From Zoroaster sp. YZ-2022 (lineage: Eukaryota; Echinodermata; Asteroidea; Forcipulatida; Zoroasteridae): a stretch of 64,000 nucleotides of DNA. Of this stretch, positions 50,565-58,640 are shown one piece after another (positions within the stretch are counted from its first letter, which is position 1; each line of letters begins with the position of its first letter). Under the pieces are notes generated by a model, which worked only from the letters and a program-made list of their open reading frames with translations, was not told where the DNA came from and made no database searches. A program made the position numbers and the translations under genes. The DNA lies in assembly GCA_029582265.1 (NCBI GenBank), contig CM055830.1:28189771-28253770 (forward strand). The letters are read 5' to 3'.

Positions 50565-50794
50565 ATTAAAGCGTAGTGGCATAATACATAATCAAGAAGG
50601 TGTCGCTGGGTTTCGGGGCAGGGAACCTGGGATGGACTCAATCACAATTTTATGTAATTAAAATTAACTAATTTAAATGATTAATTTAAATCAATTTGGC
50701 CCTTATTAATTATCTGCTAATTTATGTAATTGATATATTTTTTAATTACTGCTTAAGAGTAAACCTGTTCAGAAGAATCTATCCTATACGTTCG

Positions 50795-52275
50795 GGTTCA
50801 AATCCTTCTCCTAAAACTTAATGTTTTGACCAATGTTTATTGCTGCGATTAATCTAAAAGCATTCCTGCTAATTAACAGATGAAGCAACAGTCTAATGGG
50901 TAAGCACCCAGACATAGGTACAGTCGACCCTGGTGCAAATCCCAGCAGTGAAATGACAATTTCTTTTTCCATTTTAATTGGTTACGCAATCATGATTTAT
51001 TTTAAGTAATTTAAAATTCAACTCCAAACATCAAAAGGATTGGTGGCGCAATCCAGAGTTCCTGGGGTTTCGGTGCTGGAGATCTGGGTTCGAAACCCAG
51101 ATGAACCAACGGTCTAATGTTAAGGCCACAAAGTTTGGTACAAGCGAATCCCAGCACTGGTCTGCCGTATTTCTTTTCCATTTTAAGTGGTTTTTCTGTC
51201 ACGGTTTAGAATTAAATTCAATTCTAAATCGAATTAAATTCAGACCTAAATATCAAAAGGATTGGTGGAGCAATCAATTAGTATTGAGTTTCGATGCGAG
51301 CGACCCGAGTTCGAATCCTACTTGTCCCAATGTTATATTTTTAATTAATTACGCAATCACGTTTTATTTATAAGTAGTATTAAATTCATACCAAGAGGAG
51401 TCGTGGCGCAATCCAGTGGTGCTGGGTTTCGGTGCAAGAGACCTGGGTTCGAAACCCAGTGGCGACAGTGTTTTCGTTTTGAATGATTACGCAATCACGT
51501 TTTATTTATAAGTAGTATTAAATTCGCCATTTACCAAGAGGATTGGTAGCGCAATCTGTGACCGCTGTGCTGCGGTCCAGGCGAACCGGGTTCAAAACAC
51601 TTTAGCGCCATTGCTTTAGTTTTAAATAATTACGCAATCACGTTTTATTTATAAGTAGTATTGAATTCAACTGCACATACCAAGAGGATTGGTGGCGCAA
51701 TCTGTTGGCACTGTGTTGCGGTCCAGGCGAACCGGGTTCGAAAAAGCACCGGGTTCGAAACACTTTGGCGCCATTACTTTAGTTTTAAATAATTACGCAA
51801 TCACGTTGTATTTATAAGTAGTATTAAATTCAACTGCACGAAACAAGAGGAATCTTGGCGCAATCCAGTGGTACTGGGTTTCGGTACAGGAGAACTGGGT
51901 TCGAAACCAAGTGGCGACAATGTTTTCGTTTTGAATGATTACGCAATCACGTTTTATTTATCAGTAGTATTAAATTCGCCATTTACCAAGAGGATTGGTA
52001 GCGCAATCTGTGACTGCTGTGCTGCGGTCCAGGCGAACCGGGTTCAAAACACTTTAGCGCCATTGCTTTAGTTTTAAATAATTACGCAATCACGTTTTAT
52101 TTATAAGTAGTATTGAATTCAACTGCACATACCAAGAGGAATCTTGGCGCAATCCAGTGGTGCTGGGTTTCGGTGCAGGAGACCTGGGTTCGAAACCCAG
52201 TGGCGACAATATTTTAGTTTTGAATGATTACGCAATCAAGATTTATTTAAGTAGTTTTGAATTCAACTCCAAATA
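50795..52275 (+). repeat. Left arm: tandem tRNA-like units, about 145 bp each
   Basis: Units begin near 51031, 51255, 51391, 51533, 51680, 51840, 51985 and 52130. Each has GGATTGGTGGCGCAATC (A-box-like TGGCGCAATCNGTGG) and, 30-40 bases on, a T-arm such as CTGGGTTCGAAACCCAG with a 5-bp stem and 7-base loop (B-box GGTTCGAAACC), followed by a spacer GATTACGCAATCACGTTTTA. Two kinds alternate, one with CCAGTGGTGCTGGG, the other with CTGTGCTGCGGTCC, giving a higher-order dimer of about 290 bp. Acceptor stems do not pair, so these are not functional tRNA genes. Confidence 0.88.
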
Positions 52276-52596
52276 CCAACAGGATAAATGGCGCAAGCCG
52301 TTAGTCCACTGGTCTGTCAATTGCGGCAGTTCCAGGCTGGTACGTCCGGGTTCGAATCCTGCTCCTGAAACACAGAGACATGGCAGCTGCTGGCTGCGGC
52401 AATGGCTTGGGGACCGCCATGTCTCTCCCCTGAAGGTTAGAGCGTGGAGGAAATGTACGGACGGGGGAGAAAAGGAGGGACCGGGAGGGTAGCGACCTCC
52501 CAGAAGGGTGCTAAGGTGATCACCATGCCGGGGTGTCACGGACTTTGAGTCATCCTAATACCTGGTCGACACTCTGACTAACTCTCCGGACTTTTT
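52276..52596 (+). ncRNA. Candidate Pol III transcript, inner end of left arm
   Basis: Begins with a tRNA-like head: GGCGCAAGCCGTTAGTCC (A box) and GTCCGGGTTCGAATCC (B box). It then has a GC-rich part unlike anything near it: AGAGACATGGC pairs perfectly with GCCATGTCTCT across a 31-base loop, and GGGAGG pairs with CCTCCC across TAGCGA-type loop bases. It ends at CGGACTTTTTT (T6 at 52591-52596), a Pol III terminator. The inverted arm carries the same module with one or two changes. Transcription is predicted, not shown. Protein frames here are artefacts. Confidence 0.5.
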
Positions 52597-52630
52597 TACA
52601 ATATATATATATATATATATATATATATAT

Positions 52631-56264: not shown

Positions 56265-56369
56265 TTGTATATATATATATATATATATATATATATATAT
56301 ATATACATATATATATATATATATGTATATATATATATATATATATATATATATATATATATATATAAA
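56265..56369. repeat. (AT)n microsatellite
   Basis: An AT dinucleotide run with a few TATACATATA or TATGTATATA interruptions. It is the counterpart of the shorter run at 52601-52630 in the other arm, and the two flank the inverted loop. Confidence 0.97.
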
Positions 56370-56459
56370 TATTGATTTTCTTAAAAAAGTTGGAAAGATA
56401 GGCGACTCAAAATTACCACAAATGTGTTCTATATACATATACATGTGTATATATATATT

Positions 56460-56775
56460 GTAAAAAAGTGCGGAGAGTTAGTCAGAGTGTCGACCAGGTA
56501 TTAGGATGACTCAAAGTCCGTGACACCCCGGCATGGTGATCACCTTAGCACCCTTCTGGGAGGTCGCTACCCTCCCGGTCCCTCCTTTTCTCCCCCGTCC
56601 GTACATTTCCTCCACGCTCTAACCTTCAGGGGAGAGACATGGCGGTCCCCAAGCCATTGCCGCAGCCAGCAGCTGCCATGTCTCTGTGTTTCAGGAGCAG
56701 GATTCGAACCCGGACGTACCAGCCTGAACTGCCGCAATTGACAGACCAGTGGACTAACGGCTTGCGCCATTTATC
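56460..56775 (-). ncRNA. Candidate Pol III transcript, inner end of right arm
   Basis: Minus-strand copy of the 52276-52596 module: head at 56775 (GGCGCAAGCCGTTAGTCC), B box GGTTCGAATCC, the 11-bp hairpin arms AGAGACATGGC / GCCATGTCTCT, and GGGAGGTCGC pairing, ending at GCACTTTTTTAC near 56465. One base is missing in GCAGTTCAGGC relative to the left copy. The conservation of the GC-rich part against a decaying background suggests either recent duplication, gene conversion between arms, or selection. Confidence 0.5.
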
Positions 56776-58640
56776 CTGTTGGTATTTGGAGTTGAATTTA
56801 AAACTACTTAAATAAATCTTGATTGCGTAATCATTCAAAACTAAAACATTGTGGCCACTGGGTTTCGAACCCAGGTCTCCTGCACCGAAACCCAGTACCA
56901 CTGGATTGCGCCAAGATTCCTCTTGGTATGTGCAGTTCAATTCAATACTACTTATAAATAAAACGTGATTGCGTAATTATTTAAAACTAAAGCAATGGCG
57001 CCAAAGTGTTTCGAACCCGGTTCGCCTGGACCGTAGCACAGCGGTCACAGATTGAGCTACCAATCCTCTTGGTAAATGACGAATTTAATACTACTGATAA
57101 ATAAAACGTGATTGCGTAATCATTCAAAACGAAAACATTGTTGGCACTTGGTTTCGAACCCAGTTGTCCTGTACCGAAACCCAGTAACACTGGATTGCGC
57201 TATGATTGCTCTTGTTACGTGAAGTTGAATTCAATACTACTTATAAATAAAACGTGATTGCGTAATTATTTAATACTAAAATAATGGCGCCAAAGTGTTT
57301 CGAACCCGGTGCTTTTTCGAACCCGGTTCGCCTGAACCGCAACACAGTGCCAACAGATTGCGCCACTAATCCTCTGTTTAAATGGCGTTGAATTTAATAC
57401 TACTTATAAATAAAACGTGATTGCGTAATCATTCAAAACGAAAACACTGTGGCCATTGGGTTTCGAACCCAGGTCTCTTGCACCGAAACCCAGTACCACT
57501 GAATTGCGCCACGATTCCTCTTGGTATATGTGTATGAATTTAATACTACTTATAAATAAAACGTGATTGCGTAATTAATTAAAAATATAACATTGGGACA
57601 AGTAGGATTCGAACTCGGGTCGCTTGCATTGAAACTCAATACTAATGGATTGCTCCACCAATCCTTTTGATATTTAGGTTTGAATTTAATTCGATTTAGA
57701 GTTGAATTTAATTCTAAACCGTGACAGCAAAACCACTTAAAATGGAAAAAAATGCGGCAGACCAGTGCTGGGATTCGCTTGTCCCAAACTTTGGCGCCTT
57801 AACATTAGACCGTTGGTTATCTGCCATGGAATGTGAATGATTGGAGATTTATTGCTAGCAACAAGCATTGGTCAAAATAAAACACAAGAACTTTCTAATA
57901 GGGGTTCGAACTGCCAGACGTACCAGCCTAGAAATGTACTGATTGAACTTTCCAGTGTACTACCGGCTTGCACCAACTATCCTGTTTGTATCTGGAGTTG
58001 AATTTAAAACTACTTAAATAAATCTTGATTGCGTAATCATTCAAAACTAAAACATTGTTGCCACTGTGTTTCGATCCCAGGTCTCCTGCACCGAAACCCA
58101 GTACCACTGGATTGCGCCAAGATTCCTCTTGGTACATGTAATTGAATTTAATACTAGTATAAATAAAACAGGATTGCGTAATTATTTAAAATTAAAGAAA
58201 TGGCGCCACTGGGTTTCGAACCCGGTAACCCGGTTCGCCTGGACCGCAGTAGATTGCGCCACCAGTAGATTGCGCCACGCAGTAGATTGCGCCACGCAGT
58301 AGATTGCGCCACCAATCCTCTGGGTAAATGGTGATGAAGTTAATACTACTTATAAATAAAATGTGATTGCTTAATTTTTTTTTTTAATATATCAAACCAG
58401 TGTACTAACGGCTTGCGCCACCTATGTTGTTGGAATCTGGTGTTGTATTTTAAATTACTTAAATAAATCGTGATTGTGTAACCATTGAAAATTAAAAGAA
58501 AAGCGTCATGACACTGTTGGAACCAGAGTCAGCTGTACCAAGGTCTTGCGCCTTAACCATTAAACTGTTGCTTCATCTTATATTTAATAGGAATGATTGG
58601 AGATTCAATGAAGACAACAACCATTGGTCAAACAAATAAA
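56776..58640 (-). repeat. Right arm: tandem tRNA-like units
   Basis: B-box motifs in reverse (TTTCGAACCC or GATTCGAAC) near 56863, 57014, 57148, 57300, 57314, 57463, 57607, 57905, 58069 and 58216, with the spacer TAAAACGTGATTGCGTAAT between them. The double B-box unit at 57300/57314 mirrors the double one at 51738/51754. At 58240-58320 GCAGTAGATTGCGCCAC is repeated four times, a local slippage product. Confidence 0.87.

Follow-up and report, generated by a model that had tools for sequence, protein, structure and literature searches.

A palindrome of tRNA-like unit arrays within a large DNA transposon of the sea star Zoroaster sp. YZ-2022

Introduction

Long inverted arms made of direct repeats and a variable centre are found in the foldback elements FB, TU, Galileo and Tetris, the last of which is reportedly connected with satellite DNA. 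A structure sharing these traits, including the link to satellite DNA, is described here in a stretch of 64,000 nucleotides (hereafter, the window) of the sea star Zoroaster sp. YZ-2022 (assembly GCA_029582265.1, contig CM055830.1, positions 28,189,771 to 28,253,770 of the forward strand), where two inverted arms of tRNA-like units enclose a satellite array. In contrast to foldback elements, the arms are internal, separated by 24.3 and 2.1 kb from the actual ends of a mobile element in the window copy, and separate short terminal inverted repeats (TIRs) would mobilise it. With cut-and-paste TIR DNA transposons this element shares short TIRs, a target duplication of fixed length, subterminal repeats and a protein with a predicted DDE fold; it differs from them in its size of 22.8-34.8 kb, which is unusually large for a transposon of this class, and in its internal palindrome of tRNA-like arrays.

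The units of the arms also recall tRNA-derived short interspersed nuclear elements (SINEs) and the satellites derived from SINEs, such as PcH-Sat, said to stem from a Nin-SINE, both in their A and B boxes and in the tandem arrangement of SINE-like units. Here, however, the arrays are inverted, sit inside a DNA transposon and give no match to tRNA models. To our knowledge, giant animal DDE transposons are poorly catalogued. Among the giant elements covered in PMC6431247 are Polintons and Teratorn, a giant piggyBac-herpesvirus element; the word tRNA is absent from that text. According to the same source, Teratorn is a giant DDE transposon that has long inverted repeats in addition to its mobilising TIRs, whereas in the present element the inverted repeats are unit arrays, and viral genes were sought only by a Pfam scan of nine open frames. 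No element of such a design was found in the open-licence literature searched, in agreement with a preliminary description of the locus, which knew of none.

The closest working analogue is the IR-L boundary at the mating-type locus of Schizosaccharomyces pombe, where, as described in PMC4502379, five B-boxes in an inverted repeat are required for full boundary activity. The TFIIIC boundaries IR-L and IR-R resemble the palindrome in their inverted repeats and clustered B-boxes, but they are boundaries of a host chromosome with five B-boxes in the account given there (PMC4502379), compared with 17 here, potential TFIIIC sites in a mobile element.

Results and discussion

A large TIR transposon around the palindrome

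The palindrome is probably an internal non-coding passenger of a large cut-and-paste DDE transposon with 35-bp TIRs and 4-bp target site duplications (TSDs). The transposon itself is young, about 23-35 kb long and present in dozens of copies in the genome. Copies were sought in the 1.0-Gb source genome (616 contigs) with the outer 711 bp of the left arm as query, and 40 of the 638 candidate places were scored; all 40, the window included, carry the query end to end at 97-100%. Of the 39 other scored loci, 20 were fetched with 10 kb each, and in 20/20 of these copies the homology to the window continues past the left arm as far as the fetched DNA reaches. Since the true ends were found at 26282 and 61070, with the arms at neither of them, the structure cannot be classed as a foldback transposon, whose termini are by definition its long inverted arms, and the proposal in the preliminary description that the arms form the ends of such an element had to be abandoned.

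Both borders are shared between copies. A second search with the left 789 bp of the element (40 of 150 candidates scored) returned 37 loci, window included, that start exactly at 26282, together with one starting at base 4 and two at base 3 of the query; the copy L024 begins at the same left base as the window copy. On the right, the border falls at the same base in eight independent insertion loci, again including the window. The match stops at 61070 in L011, L015, L020, L023 and L026, as well as in L012 and L014, and at 61066 in L021. The last of these shares both contig C20 and its right flank with L015, so the pair resembles a segmental duplication more than separate insertions and was counted once. 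Beyond the right end, GTTTTGCCATATAAGGGCCG, different DNA follows in each independent copy, L021 being slightly different at the end.

The sequence of the ends agrees with this delimitation. TIRs starting with CGGCCCTT are found at both ends, and the eight exact occurrences of ATGGCAAAAC or its complement all lie within about 500 bp of an end, with none elsewhere in the window; these clusters are probably transposase binding sites (Table 1). Among the five copies with both ends available, an exact 4-bp TSD was found at the transposon ends in three (CGCT in L012, GGCA in L023 and CCCA in L014), that is, a target duplication of fixed length, as in TIR transposons. The dispersed copies with target duplications that had been expected of a mobile element do exist, although as copies of the whole transposon. 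The element measures 22.8-29.2 kb in four further copies for which both ends were mapped, and at least 20 of the 40 left ends listed are followed on the same strand, after 12.9-28.4 kb, by an arm among those listed. Thus, by its structure, the mobile element is a TIR DNA transposon.

Table 1. Coordinates of the features of the transposon and its palindrome in the window
Feature	Position	Strand	Remarks
Whole mobile element	26282..61070	none	34.8 kb in the window copy; TIRs, shared borders
Left TIR	26282..26316	+	Begins CGGCCCTTCCATGGCAAAAC; 35 bp; matches the reverse complement of 61036-61070 at 91%
Left motif cluster	26292..26774	none	Four exact ATGGCAAAAC / GTTTTGCCAT motifs
Open frame directly upstream of DUF7869 core	31065..31493	+	No Pfam match; probably an earlier exon of the DUF7869 gene
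DUF7869 protein, predicted DDE-type catalytic core	31793..32650	+	
Left palindrome arm	50580..52600	+	~146-bp tRNA-like units pointing right, then GC-rich module 52375-52600
305-bp satellite	52630..55814	+	10.4 copies
Inverted satellite	55814..56250	-	~1.4 copies; orientation compared in other copies
(TA)52 microsatellite	56268..56372	none	
Right palindrome arm	56423..58960	-	tRNA-like units pointing left; partial second arm round from ~57.9 kb outward
Right motif cluster	60652..61060	none	Four exact copies of the ATGGCAAAAC motif
Right TIR	61036..61070	-	35-bp inverted counterpart of the left TIR

The candidate transposase is a protein with a DUF7869 domain, which Pfam enters as a domain of unknown function and which is named in no paper found in the open-licence literature searched. 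The DUF7869 model matches the catalytic cores of retroviral integrase and of Mos1 and has conserved acidic residues, so that, judged by fold and motifs only, the element is predicted to encode a DDE transposase. Most likely, the DUF7869 protein would move the element through its TIRs and the clustered ATGGCAAAAC sites at both ends, acting in cis or, where copies are deleted, in trans.

Several observations weigh against the proposed reading of this locus. Foldseek by itself gave no match of the DUF7869 model at E <= 0.001, the open frame covers the core only, and the linkage of DUF7869 to the element comes from the window, L011 (where a probe spans the end of the core) and L024 (29376-32384). 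The flanks of L011, TGGT and TGAT, match at three of four bases, and the window copy has no 4-bp TSD; its flanks carry a duplication of about 208-210 bp instead (26074-26281 and 61108-61317, 98%), 37 bp separating the right end from the right-flank repeat. The flank duplication and the missing 4-bp TSD make a rearrangement of the window copy likely, either at insertion or later. Besides, some copies have no right part, as the match ends at 59236 in L018 and at 57335, with other DNA beyond, in L024, and L026 is truncated on its left side at 49665, next to an ATT run. The arrangement around L020 is a separate observation: at L035 (G000:C10:19044110-19047110), about 24 kb upstream of it, positions 33164-36113 of the transposon lie in the opposite orientation, which corresponds to an inversion or a second copy.

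Architecture of the palindrome

The inverted arms around a tandem array noticed in the preliminary description are real. They extend over ~50.8-52.6 and ~56.4-58.6 kb, and self-alignment declines outward, from 91.8% over 1311 columns in the inner arms (51388-52692 vs 57673-56367), to 82% in the middle (51098-52155 vs 57823-56759) and 75% at the outer edges (50825-51054 vs 58632-58410). Like those of foldback elements, the arms consist of direct repeats, here units of ~146 bp with A-box-like and B-box-like motifs. The estimate of about ten inward-pointing units per arm holds as well: a hidden Markov model (HMM) built from the units finds nine good ones in the left arm (+) and eleven in the right (-), all pointing inward, and degenerate units, recognised by eye and by weak HMM hits, stretch the arrays to ~50.58 and ~58.96 kb. 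The central satellite runs on one strand and then flips, the inverted part reaching ~56248.

Some details of this architecture deserve mention. The module TTTGACCAATG, at 50825, ~57870 and 58622, stands ahead of a different type of tRNA-like unit and is found again twice in the right arm, which hints at a repeat of higher order and at an additional, incomplete round of the arm on the right side. One right-arm unit contains a 17-bp tandem repeat of the A-box motif itself (58245-58312; CGCAGTAGATTGCGCCA, 4.1 copies). A lone diverged copy of the 305-bp satellite (75-79%) was detected at 36876-37077, elsewhere in the same transposon, and is a possible seed of the central array. The satellite inversion (55654-55927) matches the Rfam family MIR8562 at E 2.9e-15, far below the gathering score, as a long hairpin would.

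Variation among the fetched copies

Left-arm units were present in 20/20 fetched copies and both arms, within the 10 kb fetched, in 14/20. Of the six remaining copies, three (L013, L016 and L019) have satellite filling the stretch to its end, L017 has no satellite, and in L022 and L025 the right arm was not seen in the fetched stretch. The satellite occurs in both orientations in 12 fetched copies, eight of them with a clean plus run followed by a minus run, and single satellite pieces are out of order in L012, L014, L019 and L030. In seven copies the satellite is in plus orientation only, and three of these (L015, L018 and L021) have both arms; thus, satellite inversion is common but not universal.

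The left and right arms of one copy are on average 91.5% alike (10 copies), with a value of 96.8% in one copy that suggests occasional conversion, whereas between copies identity reaches 99.2% for right arms (13) and 97.2% for left arms (16). Since the arms are less alike within a copy than between copies, the inverted duplication predates the spread of the element. According to the scenario favoured here, the palindrome would have arisen a single time, when an array of SINE-like B-box units was duplicated in inverted orientation together with the satellite, and would have been carried along passively in every transposition, satellite copy number drifting through slippage or unequal exchange.

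Promoter-like boxes of the units

Twenty-two copies of the B-box core GTTCGANNC were found in the window, seven in the left arm (+), ten in the right arm (-) and five elsewhere. The strict combination of A-box and B-box, TGGCGCAATC-N20-40-GGTTCGAAACC, occurs six times in the window, always within the arms, against 0.00 expected from 100 dinucleotide shuffles. A-box and B-box are about 42 bases apart, a tRNA-like spacing, and TTTT runs can be read after several units. Nevertheless, the likeness to tRNA goes no further than the promoter boxes. ARAGORN (default code) detected no tRNA in the arms, nor did Rfam, either at gathering scores or up to E 10; two units gave sub-threshold Rfam matches to the tRNA-like mascRNA family (E 1.5 and 1.7). 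A cloverleaf was obtained for 0/6 folded units (z-scores -0.4 to -2.1), the clearest of which forms one long hairpin.

Conservation does not single out the boxes either. When 20 units are aligned, the AT-rich spacer shows roughly the same conservation as the boxes, and across nine right arms (eight fetched plus the window, leaving out the 17-bp tandem repeat) 3/137 box positions vary, compared with 48/1978 other sites. These proportions show no sign of selection on the boxes, although nine young copies give the comparison little power. The preliminary description, which regarded the units as tRNA-like RNA polymerase III (Pol III) units and counted about 20 potential promoters, was right about palindromic arrays of tRNA-like units that bear B-boxes, point inward and belong to a mobile element with many dispersed copies; with 17 B-box cores in the arms, 20 is an upper figure. 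On sequence grounds, the units appear promoter-like and are not tRNA genes; they are candidate Pol III promoters, their activity being unproven.

Possible roles and origin of the palindrome

Transport as a passenger is taken as the default for the role of the palindrome. One possible function of its own, rather unlikely yet deserving attention, is a chromatin boundary carried by the transposon itself: the roughly 17 B-boxes may bind TFIIIC, either alone or together with Pol III, and might insulate the transposon or tether it where silencing is escaped. The 17 cores with their convergent orientation fit this idea, as does the inverted repeat with five B-boxes of S. pombe IR-L (PMC4502379), and the retention of the left arm in all fetched copies and of both arms in most of them points in the same direction. 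That retention, however, is partly a product of selection by the search, since the arm served as query in finding the 40 loci; moreover, a binding role finds no echo in the variable sites of the nine right arms or in the inter-unit spacers, whose conservation is similar to that of the boxes. Given that fission yeast uses inverted repeats with five B-boxes as boundaries (PMC4502379), TFIIIC recruitment would be the first idea to test. Somewhat less likely still is the broader proposal of an undescribed group of giant DUF7869 transposons, each with its own TFIIIC-recruiting boundary and a variable satellite spacer, shielded from silencing during a recent burst.

The element is young, occurs in many copies and encodes a protein of a transposase-like family whose function is given as unknown in Pfam, and by multiplying 17 clustered B-boxes it would spread many potential TFIIIC sites across the genome. 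It would thereby offer a direct test case of whether clustered B-boxes alone make boundaries, and its copies form a natural series in which one palindrome is combined with satellites of varying length and which could serve for work on the stability of palindromes in animals.

A further reading takes the units for active Pol III genes, with convergent transcripts that cross the satellite and yield hairpins or double-stranded RNA as precursors of small interfering RNAs or PIWI-interacting RNAs; it is improbable. The spacing of the boxes, the TTTT runs and the inward convergence of the units would suit such genes, but the same TTTT runs would be expected to terminate transcription within each unit, before the satellite, which makes convergent transcripts into the satellite less likely, and neither ARAGORN nor Rfam recognised a tRNA in the arms.

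Equally doubtful is an origin of the palindrome as an independent foldback element that entered an ancestral form of the transposon and afterwards multiplied along with it. The long direct-repeat arms and the variable centre do resemble foldback elements, and the arms are older than the burst. Against this, the same transposon flank lies left of the arm in 20/20 fetched copies, and no free copy was present among these 20 of the 39 other scored loci, all found via the outer 711 bp.

An assembly artefact, that is, a falsely inverted or collapsed contig, is scarcely credible and, although the assembly of palindromes and satellites is difficult and the fetched locus L025 contains Ns, is refuted by independent copies, as the same inward arms recur on many contigs with differing satellite numbers and outer flanks and the arm is found at 97-100% in 40 loci; exact satellite counts could still be wrong.

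Inserts and other repeats in the window

In the window copy of the transposon, a nested TIR insert of 7,761 bp, beginning with CTAATGAAAGTGAATGAA, occupies 38690-46450, and in L011 and L012 this amount of DNA is missing at the corresponding place. A dispersed repeat of about 720 bp lies near the left end (~27075-27800), with 38 further places at 97-98% among 40 scored. The distance from the left end to the arm is 15.98-16.11 kb in five copies vs 24.5 kb in the window, which fits the absence of the 7.76-kb insert and the ~720-bp repeat from those copies.

The nested insert carries a DDE-like gene on the minus strand (40888-42588), which was excluded as part of the main element because it sits in this separate insert. 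The gene gave no convincing Pfam match, and relatives were found in Pinctada, Clytia, Amphimedon and Rhizophagus.

Finally, five copies of a SINE-like repeat of about 300-365 bp were observed in the window (3814-4150, 15006-15342, 17954-18253, 19608-19972 and 21437-21793), in two of which ARAGORN called a tRNA-Thr(TGT).

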